From Roseivirga ehrenbergii (GTDB lineage: Bacteria > Bacteroidota > Bacteroidia > Cytophagales > Cyclobacteriaceae), in assembly GCF_001593005.1 (NCBI RefSeq), contig NZ_LQZQ01000002.1:372001-436000 (forward strand): DNA of 64,000 nucleotides, given 5' to 3'. This document shows positions 10,687 through 19,217 of this stretch, in pieces (positions within the stretch are counted from its first letter, which is position 1; each line of letters starts with the position of its first letter). A model generated the notes under the pieces. It was not told the origin of the DNA. It was given only the letters and a program-made list of their open reading frames with translations, and searched no databases. The translations under genes and the position numbers were made by a program.

Positions 10687-12780
10687 GTGCCGTCATTTTT
10701 CGAAACACGCATAGAATTTATTAAGGGGGTTGGCCCGCAAAAAGCAGCGCTGATAGGTGCCGAAATTGGCCTATTCACTTATGGTGATCTTATTCAACAT
10801 TATCCCTTCCGCTACGAAGACCGCACCAAGTTTTACCCTATTGAAGAAGTACATGGCGATATGCCCTTCGTTCAAATTAAAGGTAAAATCAGAAGAATTG
10901 AAACCGTGGGCGAAATGCGGAAAAAACGCCTCGTTGCACATTTTGAGGACGGAACCGGTACGCTAGAACTGGTTTGGTTTAAGGGAATTCAGTTTATCGC
11001 TAAGAAAATACAGTTGGGGGTGGAATACGTGGTGTTTGGCAAACCTGCTACTTTTGGTCGAAAAATTAGCATTGCGCACCCTGAGCTTGAAGTGCTAACC
11101 ACTCAAAACGAAAAAGCTTCATTCCTTCAGCCGGTGTATCATACTTCTGAAAAAATGAAGGCCAAATACTTGGACAGCAAAGCCATTTCTAAAATGGTAC
11201 GCCAGGTAATGGTTTTGTCTGAACCGCATATCAACGAAACTCTTCCTCAAAGTTTAGTGACCCAGTATGGAATGATTGAAAAGAAGCTCGCGCTTTGGCA
11301 CATTCATTTTCCGGGCAATGAAGAGTTATTGAAGAAAGCTCAATTCCGCTTAAAATTCGAAGAACTGTTTTTTATTCAGTTGCGCCTGCTAAAGCTAAAA
11401 CTGACCCGAACTGAAAAGTACCGAGGAGCTGTGTATAGCGACTCCAGTTTACTTACCGATTTCTACAATAACCATTTGCCCTTCGATTTAACAAATGCCC
11501 AAAAGCGGGTAATCAAAGAAATTTATTTCGACATGAAGTCGGGCAAACAGATGAACCGTTTGCTGCAAGGAGATGTAGGAAGTGGAAAAACTATTGTAGC
11601 TTTTATATGCATGCTTTTGGTGGTAGGTTCTGGTGCGCAAGCCAGTATTATGGCGCCAACTGAAATTCTAGCCGACCAACATTATCAAGGTTTGAAACCC
11701 TTTGCCGATGCTTTGGGCATTGGCATTGCAAAACTCACGGGTTCTAGCAAAAAGAGTGAGCGCAAAGTGATTCACGCAGGCTTACTCGATGGCAGCATCA
11801 GTATTTTGGTGGGTACACATGCTTTGCTCGAAGATGTGGTTCAGTTCAAGAATTTAGGCTTGGCCATTATTGATGAACAGCACCGCTTTGGTGTAGCGCA
11901 AAGGGCGAAGCTTTGGGGCAAAAACGAACGTTTCCATCCGCATGTATTGGTAATGACGGCCACTCCAATTCCGCGTACTTTGGCCATGACGCTGTATGGA
12001 GACCTAGAAGTTTCTATTATTGATGAATTGCCTGCGGGCAGAAAGCCCATTAAAACCTTACACGAGTACGATGCCAAACGCCTACAGGTGTTTGGTTTTA
12101 TGAAGGAAGAAATCAAAAAGGGCCGGCAGATTTATGTGGTTTATCCGCTTATTGAAGAATCTGCCAAGCTGGATTTGAAAGATTTGGACGATGGTTATGA
12201 ATCCATTCGCAGGGCTTTTCCCGATCAGCACATTAGTATTGTGCATGGCAAAATGAAACCGCAGGACAAAGACTTTGAAATGCAGCGTTTTATTAAGCAC
12301 GAAACCCAAATTATGGTGGCCACCACGGTAATCGAAGTAGGGGTAAATGTGCCTAACGCTTCGGTGATGGTGATTGAAAATGCCGAACGCTTTGGCTTGG
12401 CACAATTGCATCAGTTGAGGGGCCGTGTGGGCCGTGGTGCAGAGCAATCTTATTGTATTCTGATGACAGAGTACAAGCTGAGCAAAGAAGCCCGCACGCG
12501 ACTGGAAACCATGGTGCGCACCAACAATGGTTTTGAGATTGCCGATGTAGATCTTCAGCTCCGTGGCCCAGGCGATATTACCGGAACCCAACAAAGTGGC
12601 GTGCTCGATTTACTGATTGCCGATATCGCCAAAGACGGCCAAATTCTGCAGGCCGCTAGAAATGCCGCTAGCGATATTCTTGAAGCCGACCCCAAGCTAG
12701 AAAAAGAAGAAAACCGCAATATCCTACGCCACATCAAGTCGCTTAGAAAAGCCGTAGTGAATTGGGGGAGGATTTCGTAG
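10687..12780 (+). CDS. recG: ATP-dependent DNA helicase RecG
   Basis: A 697-residue RecG that remodels stalled forks and branched DNA. The N-terminal wedge/OB domain (to about residue 250) is followed by helicase motifs: Walker A GDVGSGKT (about 295), DEQH box IIDEQHRFGV (about 394), motif III TATPIPRT, motif VI QLRGRVGRG, and the C-terminal TRG region. The start is GTG at 10687, nine bases after gldD. The C-terminus reads LRKAVVNWGRIS. A diverged copy of this tail occurs about 300 bases downstream (13077-13116), suggesting that recG has served as an insertion or recombination point. Confidence 0.95.
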   Translation: MPSFFETRIEFIKGVGPQKAALIGAEIGLFTYGDLIQHYPFRYEDRTKFYPIEEVHGDMPFVQIKGKIRRIETVGEMRKKRLVAHFEDGTGTLELVWFKGIQFIAKKIQLGVEYVVFGKPATFGRKISIAHPELEVLTTQNEKASFLQPVYHTSEKMKAKYLDSKAISKMVRQVMVLSEPHINETLPQSLVTQYGMIEKKLALWHIHFPGNEELLKKAQFRLKFEELFFIQLRLLKLKLTRTEKYRGAVYSDSSLLTDFYNNHLPFDLTNAQKRVIKEIYFDMKSGKQMNRLLQGDVGSGKTIVAFICMLLVVGSGAQASIMAPTEILADQHYQGLKPFADALGIGIAKLTGSSKKSERKVIHAGLLDGSISILVGTHALLEDVVQFKNLGLAIIDEQHRFGVAQRAKLWGKNERFHPHVLVMTATPIPRTLAMTLYGDLEVSIIDELPAGRKPIKTLHEYDAKRLQVFGFMKEEIKKGRQIYVVYPLIEESAKLDLKDLDDGYESIRRAFPDQHISIVHGKMKPQDKDFEMQRFIKHETQIMVATTVIEVGVNVPNASVMVIENAERFGLAQLHQLRGRVGRGAEQSYCILMTEYKLSKEARTRLETMVRTNNGFEIADVDLQLRGPGDITGTQQSGVLDLLIADIAKDGQILQAARNAASDILEADPKLEKEENRNILRHIKSLRKAVVNWGRIS
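12741..12780 (+). repeat. recG 3' tail, copy 1 of a 40-bp direct repeat
   Basis: This is the last 40 bases of recG. It matches 13077-13116 at 34 of 40 positions, including TAGTGAATTGGGGGAGG followed by TTTCGTAG. It is the gene-borne copy. Confidence 0.8.
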
Positions 12781-13010
12781 TGTTTAGAAATCAGTTATCA
12801 GTAGATCAGGAAAGATGAAAACATCAGCTTTTCTGCCCTTGTTGATGTTCTTCACCAACAAGCTGATGAGTCTTTTATAACAAAATTACTCTTGTTTTCG
12901 ATGGCGTACAAAGGTTTATAAATAGAGCGCGCTACCCAAACGGCTATGTGCACAACAAACGGCACTTCTTTGTGCGCGTTCATGAAACATGTAAGCATAT
13001 ATTTGTTTTC

Positions 13011-13035
13011 TTGTGCATGTTAGTGTTATGCACAA
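13011..13035. repeat. Hairpin in the recG downstream region
   Basis: Perfect 8-bp arms TTGTGCAT and ATGCACAA flank GTTAGTGTT. There is no T-run on the expected side for a terminator on either strand. Confidence 0.5.
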
Positions 13036-13076
13036 AAAAACGGGTGCAACATTCTTATTGAAAGCTAAACGTTAGA

Positions 13077-13116
13077 GCTAAAAAAGACCTTAGTGAATTG
13101 GGGGAGGGTTTCGTAG
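13077..13116 (+). repeat. Diverged second copy of the recG 3' tail
   Basis: 34 of 40 bases match the recG end. Read in the recG frame it gives ELKKTLVNWGRVS then a stop, versus SLRKAVVNWGRIS in recG. Several differences are conservative or silent, as if the copy came from another strain's recG. An in-frame stop lies four codons upstream of this block, so it is not itself a gene. Confidence 0.75.
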
Positions 13117-13172
13117 AGGGTAGATTTAGTTTAGACGCAAGAATGTTGATAAATGAGTCACTCCATAGTTTC

Positions 13173-13814
13173 TCAATATAACTCTAAGTCTTTACTCACA
13201 AAAGTGACGATTCCTTCTAGGTTTTTCTTTTTTATAAGTCTATCTACTTCATTATGAAAAGCATCGACTAATTTTGCACCCATTGCTATTTTTTTCTCCT
13301 CTGAGAATTCATTCTTGGTAGAGTCTACCTTATAATCAATGTATGATTGAAGGGATAAGAGAGTTCTAGGAAAGTCGAAATATGAAAGGGTTCCTTCTTG
13401 TTTTTCAACTAAAAGGAGGTCATGAGGCCTTCCTGTTTTCTTTTTGAGCTTAATTTCCTTAAGTCGATAGCCATTTGCCTCTATTTGTAGTTTCATTCTA
13501 TCAATTTGTTGATCGCTTAACTCCTCTAGGTCGTGTGGTATATAGATGCTAAAGTTAATATTATTGCTGGCTTTCATAAGGAGTTCATTTATTGCAGGCT
13601 CTAGGAAGTTGTTCACATAACCATGAGCTAAAGATATAGCGGGTGAAAACTCAAGGGATTCTATTTTTCCTATTTGCCATCTTATGGTTACCTCTTTAAT
13701 AACTAAAAGAATTCCTATTATAGCTTCCCATTCAATTCTATTAGGATACTTTATCCAAAGGATCATTAAAGCTAGAGTTATAGCAGTCGAAACATTTGCA
13801 ATTACATTTTTCAT
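13173..13814 (-). CDS. CBASS effector: transmembrane bacterial STING (Cap12-like)
   Basis: With the ATG at 13814 the protein has 213 residues. Two N-terminal hydrophobic segments (about 3-22 and 30-43) are followed by a bacterial STING cyclic-dinucleotide domain: SPAISLAHGYVNNFLEPAINELL (about 57-79), then GRPHDLLLVEKQEG and YFDFPRTLLSLQSYIDYKVDS (from 145). D147 and T151 have the same spacing as the Asp/Thr pair that contacts c-di-GMP in characterised bacterial STING. Binding of the nucleotide should drive oligomerisation and membrane disruption. It is the last gene of the operon, seven bases after the E2-like gene. A longer in-frame start at 13877 would overlap that gene and precede the transmembrane segment oddly. 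Confidence 0.85.
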   Translation of the reverse strand: MKNVIANVSTAITLALMILWIKYPNRIEWEAIIGILLVIKEVTIRWQIGKIESLEFSPAISLAHGYVNNFLEPAINELLMKASNNINFSIYIPHDLEELSDQQIDRMKLQIEANGYRLKEIKLKKKTGRPHDLLLVEKQEGTLSYFDFPRTLLSLQSYIDYKVDSTKNEFSEEKKIAMGAKLVDAFHNEVDRLIKKKNLEGIVTFVSKDLELY

Positions 13815-13821
13815 GATTGTC

Positions 13822-14223
13822 TTAATTTGGATGAATTCCGCCACCTTGCCATTTTCCTGTAACAAGCCATATTTCATAGAAAAAGAGCCACAATGAAACC
13901 CATGGCACGATGTAGTCTACTATTAACTTTTTTGAATCAAACTCTTTTGCTTTTGGAAAGAATAGACACAGGCTTCCATCTTTATATAAGTGCTCAGCTT
14001 TTTTGCCATCCAGTTCAGTCTTTATCATGGGCTCTCTGATAAATATTTTGATCTTTTCCCGATACCAATATTTTATTTCATAAGAGTACCAGCAACTTCG
14101 AGAAGTCGGCTTTAATTTGCCCCTAACACGCAAATAGTTTTTATCTAAAAAGAGATCACATTCTTTAATCTTAGTTTTCAAAGCGGCATGCTGAAAGTGA
14201 ATGGGAATATCTTTAATCTCCAT
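13822..14223 (-). CDS. CBASS E2-like (UBC-fold) protein of short type II systems
   Basis: A 133-residue protein starting at the ATG at 14223, which overlaps the CD-NTase stop by 11 bases. Its core has the pattern of prokaryotic E2-like proteins: HLYKDGSLCLFFP with a candidate catalytic cysteine C86, then IVPWVSLWLFFYEIWLVTGKWQGGGIHP. Short type II CBASS operons encode such an E2 without an E1 or deubiquitinase; it is believed to act on the CD-NTase. No E1 or JAB gene is nearby, as expected for the short type. The family assignment rests on motif recognition and gene order, and is strong in context. Confidence 0.82.
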   Translation of the reverse strand: MEIKDIPIHFQHAALKTKIKECDLFLDKNYLRVRGKLKPTSRSCWYSYEIKYWYREKIKIFIREPMIKTELDGKKAEHLYKDGSLCLFFPKAKEFDSKKLIVDYIVPWVSLWLFFYEIWLVTGKWQGGGIHPN

Positions 14224-15343
14224 AGAATGTATTGGGCATAACTGGTAAACTCTTTTCAACTGCTCTATCAACCATTACACCGGTTGCTAGAATTCCCAAT
14301 CCGTTTCCCCTTTTTTGGTTTACCGTTTCAGCTCTTGCTTCCATAGCCTTGATATAAGGGTCATTGCCAAACATTCCCTTCATTAATATGGCTTCTTCTT
14401 CGATTCCATGTGCCTTTTTAAGGTCTTGCCACTCATTGTGGAGATTGTTAATGAAGGAAATGAAATGCTTATATAGTTCTGGTTTGTCAACCCAAATATC
14501 TGCCAGGTTCTCACTGGGGTTTACAGGGTTTGGAAGTTCAAAAGGTCTATTAGGAAATAGGGTTTCTATGTGGTTCTTGAGTTTCGAAATGATGCCTTCA
14601 AAGGTCTCGGAAATTGAAGATTGCCCTTCGTAAAATTGAGCTGCAAGTGTTGTAAGAATTATACTGGTTGGCGCATTTTCTGGGTTTTGATCGAAATAGA
14701 TATTTCTTCTCATTTTAATCAACTGTACAGCTCTTTGAAGAGGTTTCTTTTTTGCATATTCTTCAATCTCTACTTTATGAGCAGAAAAAGTCATTTCTAG
14801 TAGTGTAAGTTCTACTCGATTAGCAATATCCAAAAACCATTTCTGATAACCTTTTGGGCTTGACCTGAGCCATATTTCATTCTTTTGATCTGTTATATCT
14901 ATAAGTTCGTGATTGTAAATTATCACCATACAACCAGGTACAACATCAAGATGGAAATCGCCTTGATAATTTAGTCTTACACACCTTGACTTAGGCTCAC
15001 ATATCTTACGATAAGTTTCGTTTTCGTTAAGTCTTCGTACCACCTCATTAAAAATGGTCTTAGGATCATAATTGGATGAGAGTAATTTGATGTGGATAAC
15101 CACATCCAAATCAAATTCAGTTTTTCCATAAGGTTTCGTTGTTGTTCCTATGGATACCGATCCTTGTGGATAAATTTCAATTTCTACACCTCCGAAAAAC
15201 TCGGGGTCATCACTAAGCCATTTGCTGATGGCTTCATAGGCGGTATTCAATCGACTCCAACGTGTTTTATCCAGTTCGGCAGCTTCTGCCATTTTAGCGA
15301 GGGTGTCTTCTAACTGGGTTTTTGCATTTGATGTAATAAGCAT
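14213..15343 (-). CDS. CBASS cyclic oligonucleotide synthase (CD-NTase)
   Basis: A 376-residue nucleotidyltransferase. The polymerase-beta-like active site is clear: the helix-N motif G61-S62 in YPQGSVSIGTTTKPYGKTEFDLDVVI, metal ligands D78 and D80, and third aspartate D133 in GDFHLDVVPG. An OAS-like helical C-terminal part follows. It should make a cyclic nucleotide on phage infection. The adjacent STING effector suggests c-di-GMP and a clade E (CdnE) enzyme, which is inference. The C-terminus is NTFYGD. It is the first gene of the three-gene operon; a sigma-like gene is divergent on the other side of a 233-base gap. Confidence 0.9.
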   Translation of the reverse strand: MLITSNAKTQLEDTLAKMAEAAELDKTRWSRLNTAYEAISKWLSDDPEFFGGVEIEIYPQGSVSIGTTTKPYGKTEFDLDVVIHIKLLSSNYDPKTIFNEVVRRLNENETYRKICEPKSRCVRLNYQGDFHLDVVPGCMVIIYNHELIDITDQKNEIWLRSSPKGYQKWFLDIANRVELTLLEMTFSAHKVEIEEYAKKKPLQRAVQLIKMRRNIYFDQNPENAPTSIILTTLAAQFYEGQSSISETFEGIISKLKNHIETLFPNRPFELPNPVNPSENLADIWVDKPELYKHFISFINNLHNEWQDLKKAHGIEEEAILMKGMFGNDPYIKAMEARAETVNQKRGNGLGILATGVMVDRAVEKSLPVMPNTFYGD

Positions 15344-15576
15344 ATAGTAATTTGTTTTTCTTCCCGTAATTTTTTTTAAAAAGTCATCTCCTTTTCTTGT
15401 CTAATAGCATCTCTTTTGGTTCAATAACTTTTTATACTTTCAGGTCCTGAACCATCTCCTATTCTCTCAGTCCTGAACTTTGTTTATATATGACATAAAA
15501 ATTAATTTAAAAATCATATAATTGTGTTTAAGTAGTTGCGCTCTACTTGAATTACTGAAATAGGTTCCCAACGCTT

Positions 15577-16248
15577 TTGCGTATACCAAATGAAGAGTTG
15601 ATGACATACCATCAGAAATCTACTCAGGACTTAATTGACACCTATCAAAACGTGGATCTCCCTAATCGTGAGGAGGCATTTTCTGTACTGGTTTTGAGGT
15701 TTAGACAGGACTTACTCAACTTTTGTGAGATGAGGTGTAGAAAGTTTGGTCAATCGCATGAAGTAGCTGAGGAAATTGTTTTTAAGACTTTTGAGTCTTA
15801 CGCCAAGAAACCTGGCTTTGATTTAAAAGAAGCAAAGGGAAAGACTGATGATGATTCCTTTATTATATATTTAGCTGCAATTGCGAAAAACAACCTTACC
15901 GATTTCTATCGAATACAGAAACGTAAGGAAGAGGGTAATTGGTCAGACGGATCAGAGGTTATTATAACGGAATTACCAAAGTTGCCGACTGAGGCATCCT
16001 TGGAAAACCAAATAGTTTATAAAGTGTTATGTTCACTACCATACAGTCATAAAGTGATTTACTTAACCTATAAGTCTTATGAAAATGCAGGCTGTAATCT
16101 CCCAAGAAAGCTTTTAAAAGAGCTGCGTGAGCATTTGGGCATAGAACAAGGAACAATAAGAACTTATAAAAAGGAAACTCTCGATAAAATTAGCATTGCT
16201 CTATTAGGTCTCAGAGCTTTAGAATCTGATTTACATGAAAATGGATAA
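15577..16248 (+). CDS. Sigma-70 family (ECF-like) RNA polymerase sigma factor
   Basis: Up to 223 residues from TTG 15577; the in-frame ATG at 15601 (215 residues) may be the true start. Region 2 is seen as EEAFSVLVLRFRQDLLNFCEMRCRKFGQSHEVAEEIVFKTFESYAK followed by a DDSFIIYLAAIAKNNLTDFYRIQKR stretch. A region-4-like helix-turn-helix is near LGIEQGTIRTYKKETLDKI. It probably directs transcription of a few targets. It starts divergently from the CBASS operon and overlaps the next gene by 14 bases. No anti-sigma factor with a membrane segment is present, so its control may depend on the downstream partner. A non-sigma DNA-binding role is possible. Confidence 0.72.
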   Translation: MRIPNEELMTYHQKSTQDLIDTYQNVDLPNREEAFSVLVLRFRQDLLNFCEMRCRKFGQSHEVAEEIVFKTFESYAKKPGFDLKEAKGKTDDDSFIIYLAAIAKNNLTDFYRIQKRKEEGNWSDGSEVIITELPKLPTEASLENQIVYKVLCSLPYSHKVIYLTYKSYENAGCNLPRKLLKELREHLGIEQGTIRTYKKETLDKISIALLGLRALESDLHENG

Positions 16249-16975
16249 GATAAGTGCTTTTCTAAATAGTACCGGTTTTGGGTTTCCAGAATCTTCAGAT
16301 CAGATTGATCAGTTTAGACTGACTTTCAAGAGTTTTGAGTTTAAGGCTGATATTAATAAAATTGATCCTACTGCGATTTTATTAGCCTCTAAGAAATCAA
16401 CTAAAGAAATAACAGGGATTGATTACCATAAAAGAACTGTCCTTGCTGCAGAGATAGTTTATCAATTACACCATGAATGGTCATTGGGACATGTAAAGTT
16501 GCAAAAATTAATGTTCTTATGTCAGAATTCATTGGGTATGGCTATTCATGCGAATTTCTTAAAGCAAGCAATGGGACCATATGATCCTAGTTTGATGAGG
16601 TCAATCGATTCCCAGTTTAAGAAAAATGAATGGTTTGAGTTTAGAAGAGGCTCAAATCAAAAATATTGGCCGCTTGCAAAGTCAGGAGGTCATAAAGAAT
16701 GGTTTGAGAAATATTATAAAGATAAGCTGATTCAAATTAATGATTTGATCGGAATATTTAGGAAAACAAAGACTAGTGAAATTGAATTGATAGCAACAAT
16801 TTTTGCTTGCTGGAAAGAGATTCTCGAAGAGGGTAATGATTTTAACAGTCAACTACTTCACTCCAAATTTTATAATTGGGCTGATGAAAAGAAGAAGTTT
16901 TCGGAGTCGGAGATAAATAGAGCCATGGAGTGGATGCTTGAAAAAGGTATTTATCCAGTTCAGGCTTCTGAATAA
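16235..16975 (+). CDS. Uncharacterised protein, possible Panacea/DUF4065-like segment
   Basis: A 246-residue soluble protein. Its middle, WSLGHVKLQKLMFLCQNSLG then LKQAMGPYDPSLMRSIDSQFKKNEWFEFRRG, resembles the KLQKLLY...GP pattern of DUF4065/Panacea-type domains and of helical domains attached to some type I restriction S subunits. Panacea domains neutralise diverse toxins. That similarity is weak and is inference. The gene overlaps the sigma-like gene by 14 bases, so the two are translationally coupled and may act as a pair (for example sigma and antagonist). It ends the accessory block; core-type genes resume at 17064. Confidence 0.45.
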   Translation: MKMDKISAFLNSTGFGFPESSDQIDQFRLTFKSFEFKADINKIDPTAILLASKKSTKEITGIDYHKRTVLAAEIVYQLHHEWSLGHVKLQKLMFLCQNSLGMAIHANFLKQAMGPYDPSLMRSIDSQFKKNEWFEFRRGSNQKYWPLAKSGGHKEWFEKYYKDKLIQINDLIGIFRKTKTSEIELIATIFACWKEILEEGNDFNSQLLHSKFYNWADEKKKFSESEINRAMEWMLEKGIYPVQASE

Positions 16976-17063
16976 ATTTACTTTTCAACGCTATTACTAC
17001 TTCATAAGCTCTTTATACCACACCCCATAACCCCTAACCAATCCCTCTTAACTACACACCCGC

Positions 17064-19217
17064 CTACCATCTCCACAAATAGCTGGCTTTAAAAAAGAAG
17101 CCGCTGGCTTTTTGTAGGTATTGGTCATCGTTTACGTACTGGGCGCCATCCCAGCGGGTTTTTTCATATACGGAGCCCCAGCCAAGGTGAACTACAGTAC
17201 CAGGAATGTAGGTAAAGGACACCAAGAAATTAGGGCTAAATACTTTAGAAAGGCTATTGTATTGGGCAATACCCCTAAAGAACAGGTACTTATTCATTTG
17301 GTAAACTACGCGTCCACGAGCAATGTGAATATCATAGTATTTTACATCCGTGTCTGAATTGTAAAGCGAGTTAAAAGTATGGGTGAACTGCGCGCTAAAC
17401 TTGTCGGACAACTGAAGGGTAAGGTTGTTGCTAATGCGCTTGCCATACCCTTGGGCCAATTCTCTGTAGTAAGTTCCGTTGTCCCAGTCGTAGCTAGTTT
17501 TAAAGAAAATGCGTTTTGTAATCTGAGAACTCGCCTGTAGGCTAATGGTTCCGTCTTTAAATTCTTGGCCTAAGTAAATTTCCGAAGAATGGTCTGCAGA
17601 AACAGACAAACGTGTGTTTCGGGGCAGTGTAGCTGCCAATGAAAGGTAAAGCACATGCTCATTAAGTCCGCTGGGTTTGTCTTTGGTGAGGGAGGTATAA
17701 AGCTGTGGATCTATGCGCTTGATTAAACCATCTCCTTTTGGAAATATTTTTGGGTTTAAGCTTAGCGTAGCACGACTAATGCCTGTTCGGGTAATATAGC
17801 CTACCTCTGACCTAAAGTCTTCACCAATATCTAACAGACTAAAAGAACCATTGAAATTTCGGGTGTTTTTTGAAACACTAATGGAGCTAGAAATACTGTT
17901 AGCCAAAGGGCCGTCTTCCGTAAGTTTGGTTCTAGAATTCAAAAAATGACCTGTCACTTGGTTCGACTGATTGAAACGGTATTGGCCATCAAAACCTAAT
18001 ACATCATTCGAAGCCCCATTTCTTCTACGGGTTGTGCCAATTAAGCCTACATAGCTGTCTTGAGAAAGCGAGCGCATATAGCGCATTACACCAACATCGG
18101 CAGTTTCATCTTGGGCAAAATCTGGTAAATGTTCATCTGCTCTGTCTACTGCATATATGCTTGAAATAATGTTTTTATCGCCAATCTTACCCGTCAGTTT
18201 AGCGGCTCTTTTCGGAGATACAATTGATCTAGAATTGACCACTGAGCTTACAGGAGAGAAACCACCTGTTCCAGCAAAATTGAAGTTCTCATTTCCTTCC
18301 AAAAAGAAAGGTCTTCTTTCAGGATAGTTAACAGGAAAGCGCTGGTTTACTTCTACCTGTTGCGCATCAGATTCTACTTGGCTAAAATCTGGGTTGATGG
18401 TAGCATCAAAAACCAATTCGGGCGTAATACCAATTTTAGCCGTTAGGCTGGGTTCAAAATTATACTCCTTTTTGTATGCTCCGTTTATATGTTCCTTATT
18501 GATGGCGTAAGTAACAGCAGGCAATATCTCCACTAATTTGGGTTTCTTTACCCTATCATACTGTATCGGCATCATTTGGGTAAGAAAAGCAAAGCCCTGT
18601 TTTGGGTCGAGTGCCGGAAAAGTGCCCTGAATAGAAAAACGGCTAATCCTTCGTTCGAAAATTACACCCATTTCTACCTGGCCGTCCTTAACAGTATAGC
18701 GAATACTTTTAAAAGGAATTTTGGCTTCTACCACGTAGCCATCATCCACTATTTTAGCCGCGCTGTACCAAATCAAATCTAGACCAACATCCTCATTACC
18801 TGCGGCAAATCGCGTATCCATTTGAATACCATTTGGGTTTACGTACAAGCCGTAGAGTGATTGGGCACTGTTAAACGAGTCGAGGTTGATGCAAATCCAA
18901 TCATCGGCCGAAATTTTATCGCGTGCTGCAATAGATGTTTTAATCAATTTGGGGTCGTCAAAACACTTAAAGGCGAAGTATAAGTTTTCATCGTCATGTG
19001 CCATATAAGCGATGGTTTGAAAAGGCATGTCCTTTCCAAAATCTGGCACAAAGGTTTTATAGCCAGTTACATTGGGGCTATTTTTCCAAATGTCTTCATT
19101 TAAAACCCCATCTATTTTTGGGGGTGTTTCTACATAGACCGACTTAACTTGAGCGTTTGCCTGAAATTTAAAAAGAACAACAAACGCAATGACCGAGTAA
19201 AAAAGAGTTTTCAACAT
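17064..19217 (-). CDS. DUF5916 outer-membrane protein with CBM9-like domain
   Basis: With the ATG at 19217 it has 717 residues. A signal peptide (to about residue 22, ending QANA) is followed by a carbohydrate-binding-module family 9-like domain (about 25-210: PPKIDGVLNEDIWKNSP, YGLYVNPNGIQMD, VVEAKIPFKSIRY) and a long beta-strand-rich C-terminal region typical of DUF5916. That region is probably an outer-membrane barrel, ending in aromatic residues (YLWRW). Its substrate is unknown. Family members are widespread in Bacteroidota and sit near peptidases or transporters. It stands alone, with its own promoter region expected upstream of 19217. Confidence 0.85.
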   Translation of the reverse strand: MLKTLFYSVIAFVVLFKFQANAQVKSVYVETPPKIDGVLNEDIWKNSPNVTGYKTFVPDFGKDMPFQTIAYMAHDDENLYFAFKCFDDPKLIKTSIAARDKISADDWICINLDSFNSAQSLYGLYVNPNGIQMDTRFAAGNEDVGLDLIWYSAAKIVDDGYVVEAKIPFKSIRYTVKDGQVEMGVIFERRISRFSIQGTFPALDPKQGFAFLTQMMPIQYDRVKKPKLVEILPAVTYAINKEHINGAYKKEYNFEPSLTAKIGITPELVFDATINPDFSQVESDAQQVEVNQRFPVNYPERRPFFLEGNENFNFAGTGGFSPVSSVVNSRSIVSPKRAAKLTGKIGDKNIISSIYAVDRADEHLPDFAQDETADVGVMRYMRSLSQDSYVGLIGTTRRRNGASNDVLGFDGQYRFNQSNQVTGHFLNSRTKLTEDGPLANSISSSISVSKNTRNFNGSFSLLDIGEDFRSEVGYITRTGISRATLSLNPKIFPKGDGLIKRIDPQLYTSLTKDKPSGLNEHVLYLSLAATLPRNTRLSVSADHSSEIYLGQEFKDGTISLQASSQITKRIFFKTSYDWDNGTYYRELAQGYGKRISNNLTLQLSDKFSAQFTHTFNSLYNSDTDVKYYDIHIARGRVVYQMNKYLFFRGIAQYNSLSKVFSPNFLVSFTYIPGTVVHLGWGSVYEKTRWDGAQYVNDDQYLQKASGFFFKASYLWRW

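Follow-up and report, generated by a model that had tools for sequence, protein, structure and literature searches.

Which signal does a membrane STING answer when the gene beside it is a CdnG rather than a CdnE? In the literature consulted, most accounts present bacterial STINGs as receptors for c-di-GMP partnered by CdnE, and two studies describe the mode of action of bacterial TM-STING as unclear (PMC10732462; PMC12421889). The window, i.e., the whole stretch of 64,000 nt analysed from the Roseivirga ehrenbergii genome (G000), carries on its minus strand three genes in the order CdnG-E2-STING:

14213..15343, minus strand: CdnG-type CD-NTase, 376 aa (PADLOC, Pfam, and PDB matches)
13822..14223, minus strand: E2-like protein, 133 aa from ATG 14223 (PADLOC and PDB matches)
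13173..13814, minus strand: TM-STING effector, 213 aa (Pfam and PDB matches)

Profile and PDB searches identified all three genes with E-values too low for chance, confirming the trio of CD-NTase, E2-like protein, and STING called in the initial annotation. The CD-NTase matched the PADLOC cyclase PDLC00815 (5.7e-126) and Pfam SMODS (5.9e-14), the E2-like protein matched PADLOC E2 (3.6e-37) and the Serratia E2 in PDB 8hsb_B (2e-13) with no match in Pfam, and the 213-aa protein matched Pfam prok_STING (7.4e-23) and PDB 6wt4 (1.1e-30). The E2 frame as listed starts at TTG 14271; ATG 14223 is the favoured start because it is supported by the homologue in L033. From this ATG the E2 gene overlaps the end of CdnG by 11 nt, and the prok_STING gene, the effector of the same operon, begins 7 nt past the E2 stop. 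No E1 or JAB was found among the five cassette proteins with Pfam, PADLOC, and NCBIfam models, and an E2 lacking both places the locus in type II short (E2-only) CBASS. The profile and PDB matches bear out the earlier claim of such a system carrying a TM-STING. No Rfam match was found, and promoter-like and terminator-like sites were no commoner than in shuffles. The same trio occurs in L033 with amino acid identities of 83, 80, and 65% for CdnG, E2, and STING, respectively; pN was 0.093, 0.101, and 0.22 and pS about 0.79 for each gene (saturated), and all three are under strong purifying selection. This selection, the intact frames, and the kept catalytic residues make a decayed or non-functional cassette very improbable, even though the genome-contig scan described below returned just one copy besides the window.

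The active site of the CD-NTase was intact, as the initial annotation had read it, with G61-S62, D78-x-D80, and D133 aligned in 28 rows. Its nearest PDB entries were VcCdnG 9woo (9.1e-33) and SmCdnG 8hsb_A (5.8e-30), followed by 7ljn (2.5e-10), and the CdnE model that best fits the FsSTING partner (PDLC00784) had no match in the whole host genome. By these matches the enzyme groups with CdnG and not with the CdnE (6WT8-like) family. Characterized CdnG members produce cGAMP isomers according to the text available to us, including 3′2′-cGAMP for CdnG-Cap5 of Vibrio cholerae and Asticcacaulis, which is of the same CdnG kind and has the same ATP/GTP pocket residues as the window enzyme but a SAVED-HNH nuclease as effector in place of STING. 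The ATP/GTP residues K118, R120, S193, and E308 given for VcCdnG in the accessible part of PMC12804361 align with K118, R120, S161, and E278 of the window CdnG, and the lid2 residue Y198 with Y166. The lid1 residue N194 is replaced by Ser162 (Cys in L033), and the lid pair therefore does not reveal the product. A structure prediction of CdnG from a two-row alignment was discarded (pLDDT 39.6).

An effector swap, in which a CdnG has its usual effector replaced by a TM-STING, was seen on two trees, both from quick searches supported by SH-aLRT alone, with no bootstrap. The STING tree (48 rows, flagged for long branches) placed the window and L033 as sister to seven CdnE-linked TM-STING rows (SH-aLRT 97), with TM-STINGs lacking an adjacent CD-NTase outside this group; it omits the divergent L015, L030, and L031, and 14 of 63 loci were not entered (L002, L005, L008-L010, L014, L016-L018, L026, L029, L032, L063, and L064), among which L002, L005, L008, L009, and L014 had their frame missed by the motif filter. 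The CdnG tree (28 rows) placed the window and L033 in a six-row group (SH-aLRT 99) whose other four members have Cap16-like effectors. The sister STING lineage includes the nearest receptor, FsSTING (6WT4) of a Flavobacteriaceae species, encoded in an operon with its CD-NTase (CdnE, 6WT8) and sharing the fold and the Asp/Thr pair of the window protein; that system differs in having CdnE instead of CdnG and no E2 match in its locus. The FsSTING locus is L040: its STING agrees with the FsSTING chain at every column used for the tree, and its CD-NTase matches 6wt8, an entry whose deposition names a STING-associated CdnE c-di-GMP synthase. On the cyclase side, the nearest relatives after L033 are CdnG-E2-Cap16 (2TM-NUDIX) operons of the same order (L094, L095, and L112), which share the aromatic-Gly CdnG C-terminus and the same kind of E2, whereas their 2TM-NUDIX effector lies upstream of CdnG and the window STING downstream of E2. 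The CdnG with single E2 of Serratia marcescens (8HSB) has a similar LCLF-type E2 cysteine in proteins distant from those of the window (5.8e-30 for CdnG and 2e-13 for E2), and that system is not known to have a STING.

The combination is rare. Effectors at 27 CdnG/E2-type loci comprised 10 Cap16-like (six by Pfam Sa_NUDIX and four by similarity to the L094 effector), 10 SAVED, four phospholipase, and two STING, the latter being the window and L033, with no effector called for the remaining locus L104. This set covered the window, L033, 18 further genomes of the order with a CdnG match (out of 20, the two omitted being weak), G770, and six plasmid records, and it counts L090, whose cyclase is nearer the second-NTase family than the window CdnG. 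Of all plasmid records searched, 140 matched CdnG and 79 matched E2. A prok_STING match was present in 18/390 genomes of the order (17 above the curated cut-off) and 16/395 genomes of the phylum. The genome-contig scan, which is pattern-based and can miss divergent relatives, gave 32 STING relatives, with CdnG and E2 at one (L033), a CdnE-like gene at five, and neither in the flanks examined at 26, in agreement with the earlier impression that an E2-only module with STING is uncommon. Taken over 63 STING loci (L002-L064), 22 had a CdnE-like gene, one CdnG and E2, one another CD-NTase (L015), and 39 none recognized in flanks of ≤1.5 kb for L002-L032 and up to 7 kb for the others; among these 39 are L018, where a frame resembling a penicillin-binding protein was falsely matched, and loci truncated where their contig stops, L063 and L064 for example. 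No STING relatives were found in plasmid records, phage records, or viral contigs, and the literature search, as far as the sources could be consulted, returned no report of a STING whose partner is CdnG or an E2-only operon. The initial annotation had made its reading depend on a STING fold and on a CD-NTase clade with a known STING link: the fold stood, while the literature search returned no such report for the clade.

The orphan STINGs with no recognized CD-NTase in the flanks examined were L034, L037, L039, L041, and L043-L064, some of whose flanks end at contig ends. GGDEF, SMODS, and the FsSTING-type CdnE model were all absent in 12 of 16 orphan-STING genomes searched (those of 13 of the 26 orphan loci plus G645, G615, and G655). 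Such orphans, 26 of the 32 relatives, and another SMODS protein in G000 (C45:641660-642085) are what would be expected if STING read a nucleotide made elsewhere, e.g., by this second host enzyme, and CdnG-E2 were a loosely linked neighbour. We consider this split improbable, given genes that overlap or nearly touch, a trio repeated in L033, and one shared cassette.

Two features bear on how E2 may act on the cyclase:

13966..13968, minus strand: predicted catalytic Cys86 of E2 (SLCLF)
14216..14233, minus strand: CdnG C-terminal motif N371-T-F-Y-G375-D376 (aromatic-Gly tail comparison)

The SLCLF cysteine noted in the initial annotation is Cys86, and the cysteine of this LCLF/LCLY stretch was kept in 21/21 aligned E2 rows. 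An aromatic-Gly motif followed by ≤4 residues ended 22/23 unfused CdnGs compared to 5/268 other ORFs of the same loci, a pattern picked after viewing the sequences. The sole CdnG without it, in L108, also lacked an E2 match of the window type; a strict link between motif and E2 does not fit because L093 and L111 have the motif with no E2 match in the gene set searched (the E2 of L092 was taken from its annotation). The NTFYG-D tail is probably the site of E2 processing or conjugation, judging from its conservation. Cyclase-cyclase conjugation has been proposed as the activation of an E2-only system in the available text of PMC11153139. In L098, L099, and L100, CdnG and E2 are fused as one 545-aa protein, and the junction of all three fusions bears a glycine-containing R-[FY]-G-G-K stretch.

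Structure prediction gave the 213-aa protein the STING ligand-binding fold that had been anticipated, with these elements:

13650..13811, minus strand: N-terminal helices 2-22 and 27-55, predicted membrane hairpin (AlphaFold helices)
13362..13430, minus strand: STING lid and pocket R129-P-H131, D147, R150, and T151 (alignment to FsSTING)

By hydropathy, helix 1 was over the cut-off and helix 2 under it, with both over it in many relatives, and the protein is probably anchored in the membrane. The pocket residues correspond to R151, R153, D169, N172, and T173 of FsSTING. The Asp147/Thr151 pair on which the initial annotation based a c-di-GMP signal is there, spaced like D169/T173 of FsSTING. 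D147 was kept in 61/61 STING rows and T151 in 53/61 (the 48 tree rows plus 13 added later, three divergent rows excluded), and the pair cannot separate c-di-GMP from cGAMP because both residues are widespread, including in CdnE-linked rows. An invariant T151 was ruled out, Thr being found in just 5/13 added rows. The window and L033 STINGs differed from the seven CdnE-linked sister rows by fixed differences at 16/160 positions, two of these being H131 in place of R153 and R150 in place of N172, so that the RAR lid and N172 of FsSTING stand against RPH and R150 in the window. Arg at the R150 column occurred in 4/61 rows only (the window, L033, and the orphans L024 and L025), where CdnE-linked STINGs have Asn in 7/7 TM rows and Thr or Ser in the aligned TIR rows. 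Position D+3 holds the phosphate-contacting Thr of TIR-STINGs in the accessible text of Ko et al. (PMC8748872); it is N172 in FsSTING, the equivalence being by alignment in the present analysis. His at the H131 column was found in the window, L033, and 4/12 TIR-STINGs first aligned (L003, L006, L007, and L019, all adjoining a CdnE-like gene) and in 0/13 added rows, and an RxH lid peculiar to CdnG-linked STINGs was thereby ruled out.

Ko et al. (PMC8748872) recognize two classes of bacterial STINGs, RX(Y/F) with specificity for c-di-GMP and RXR, for which they argue a preference for 3′3′-cGAMP, and Hou et al. (PMC10739871) report an RXR protein binding c-di-GMP. The R129-P-H131 lid of the window STING belongs to neither Class I RX(Y/F) nor Class II RXR (Ko et al., 2022), though the protein is sister to RXR proteins. 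H131 and R150 are suggestive of a ligand change by sequence comparison; the pocket changes may also be drift because only two CdnG-linked STINGs are known. In a c-di-GMP version of the system, CdnG would have drifted to c-di-GMP and STING would keep the ancestral specificity, consistent with sister receptors whose CdnE partner was deposited as a synthase of c-di-GMP (6wt8), a lid1 S162 that departs from the CdnG norm, the lid-position His in four TIR-STINGs beside CdnE-like genes, and a host with no GGDEF match. We hold this version to be unlikely though worth weighing, as the enzyme lies in the CdnG clade with its ATP/GTP pocket residues kept and Arg at the R150 column is absent from every CdnE-linked STING row. 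A GGDEF match was lacking in G000 and present in 4/45 STING genomes; with this lack, the host could use c-di-GMP safely as an immune signal, and the GGDEF test consequently failed as an exclusion of c-di-GMP. The added 13 rows held no further Arg at R150, in favor of cGAMP, and the four His-bearing TIR-STINGs weigh against it, leaving the balance unchanged, with a cGAMP isomer somewhat better than even as the ligand compared to c-di-GMP. The predicted c-di-GMP signal is thus weakened by the CdnG grouping of the CD-NTase, a non-discriminating D147/T151 pair, and the differing H131 and R150.

The operon and two divergent genes make up five genes in one insertion, since blastn identity with L152 of the sister species G771 stops at 13129 and resumes at 17029:

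13130..17029, no strand: inserted cassette relative to sister species G771 (blastn vs. L152)
13077..13124, plus strand: 48-nt direct repeat of the recG 3′ end (12741-12788), 81% identical
15577..16248, plus strand: sigma-70-family-like protein, 223 aa, divergent (NCBIfam TIGR02937)
16235..16975, plus strand: 246-aa protein, overlaps the sigma-like gene (PADLOC matches)

G771 has a comparable direct repeat of this recG end, with a spacing of 334. The gap between recG and a gene we take to be DUF5916-like (window 12780-17064) is a defense-system hotspot in the genus: among 19 genomes it measured 1.8-11.6 kb in six (the window's own included, the largest in G119), 184 bp in one, and 5-81 bp in eight, four not being comparable (no match or different contigs). 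Its contents include type III restriction-modification and HEC-01A genes in G771, DarTG in G132, PDC-M11A in G770, and PDC-M19A/B in G775.

The sigma-like protein scored just below the TIGR02937 cut-off (3.9e-11, 42.8 against 42.9 bits) and is likely a regulator. The 246-aa protein matched PADLOC PDLC03039 (2.7e-36) and DarG (1.7e-12), and nothing in Pfam even with E-values as high as 1 allowed. Its relationship is with the C-terminal regions of certain type I MTases, HsdS, and DarG. In L033 and L112 (of the window's genus), sigma-like, 135/136-aa, and ImmA/IrrE-type peptidase genes are divergent from CdnG, and a Bradyrhizobium plasmid system has a similar order of sigma-like, small, and peptidase genes. 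In the window, the 246-aa gene stands where L033 and L112 have the peptidase; no ImmA-type peptidase was found there, and a search of the window with the fourth gene of L033 matched only CdnG itself. The small protein of L112 weakly matched capH (1.3e-4). These gene sets suggest a sigma/anti-sigma/protease controller of CdnG-E2 CBASS distinct from the plain CapH+CapP described in the available text of PMC13373217. Three CdnG/E2-type operons also have a second, shorter CD-NTase gene downstream of E2, that of L033 with what may be an N-terminal transmembrane segment. The positions are:

L033:3412-5196, sigma-like/small/peptidase gene set
L112:1132-2941, sigma-like/small/peptidase gene set
L092:1040-2822, sigma-like/small/peptidase gene set
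L033:7599-8630, second CD-NTase gene (after STING)
L090:4275-5165, second CD-NTase gene
L105:5639-6508, second CD-NTase gene

The reading we favor, with reasonable though not strong confidence, is a CdnG-based type II short CBASS in which a two-helix TM-STING (Cap13 type) has taken over from the usual effector and the signal is likely a cGAMP isomer. The sigma-like gene and its 246-aa partner would control expression; E2 would process the CdnG C-terminus next to Gly375 and conjugate it via Cys86, licensing the enzyme, a step proposed because of the conserved tail motif and the published work on E2-only CBASS. Upon phage infection CdnG would make a cyclic dinucleotide, and clade and pocket residues point to a cGAMP isomer as the likeliest product. 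A STING dimer would bind this product via F70, R129, H131, D147, R150, and T151 before oligomerizing, and the N-terminal helices would then damage the inner membrane such that the infected cell dies. The fuller proposal of a complete prokaryotic cGAS-cGAMP-membrane-STING axis, with a 3′2′ or 3′3′ isomer from CdnG gating the transmembrane STING, a pocket that gained R150/H131 upon the switch of synthase from CdnE to CdnG, and E2 control of the cyclase, is more tentative and falls a little short of an even chance.

With CdnG as its partner, STING may answer to a different signal from the usual c-di-GMP, and a CdnG-wired STING with CdnE-wired sisters gives a short list of substitutions for ligand specificity. 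The E2-only operon offers a simple system for CD-NTase control of a membrane effector and, if the cGAMP axis is true, the locus would be a natural experiment in the change of STING from c-di-GMP to cGAMP.
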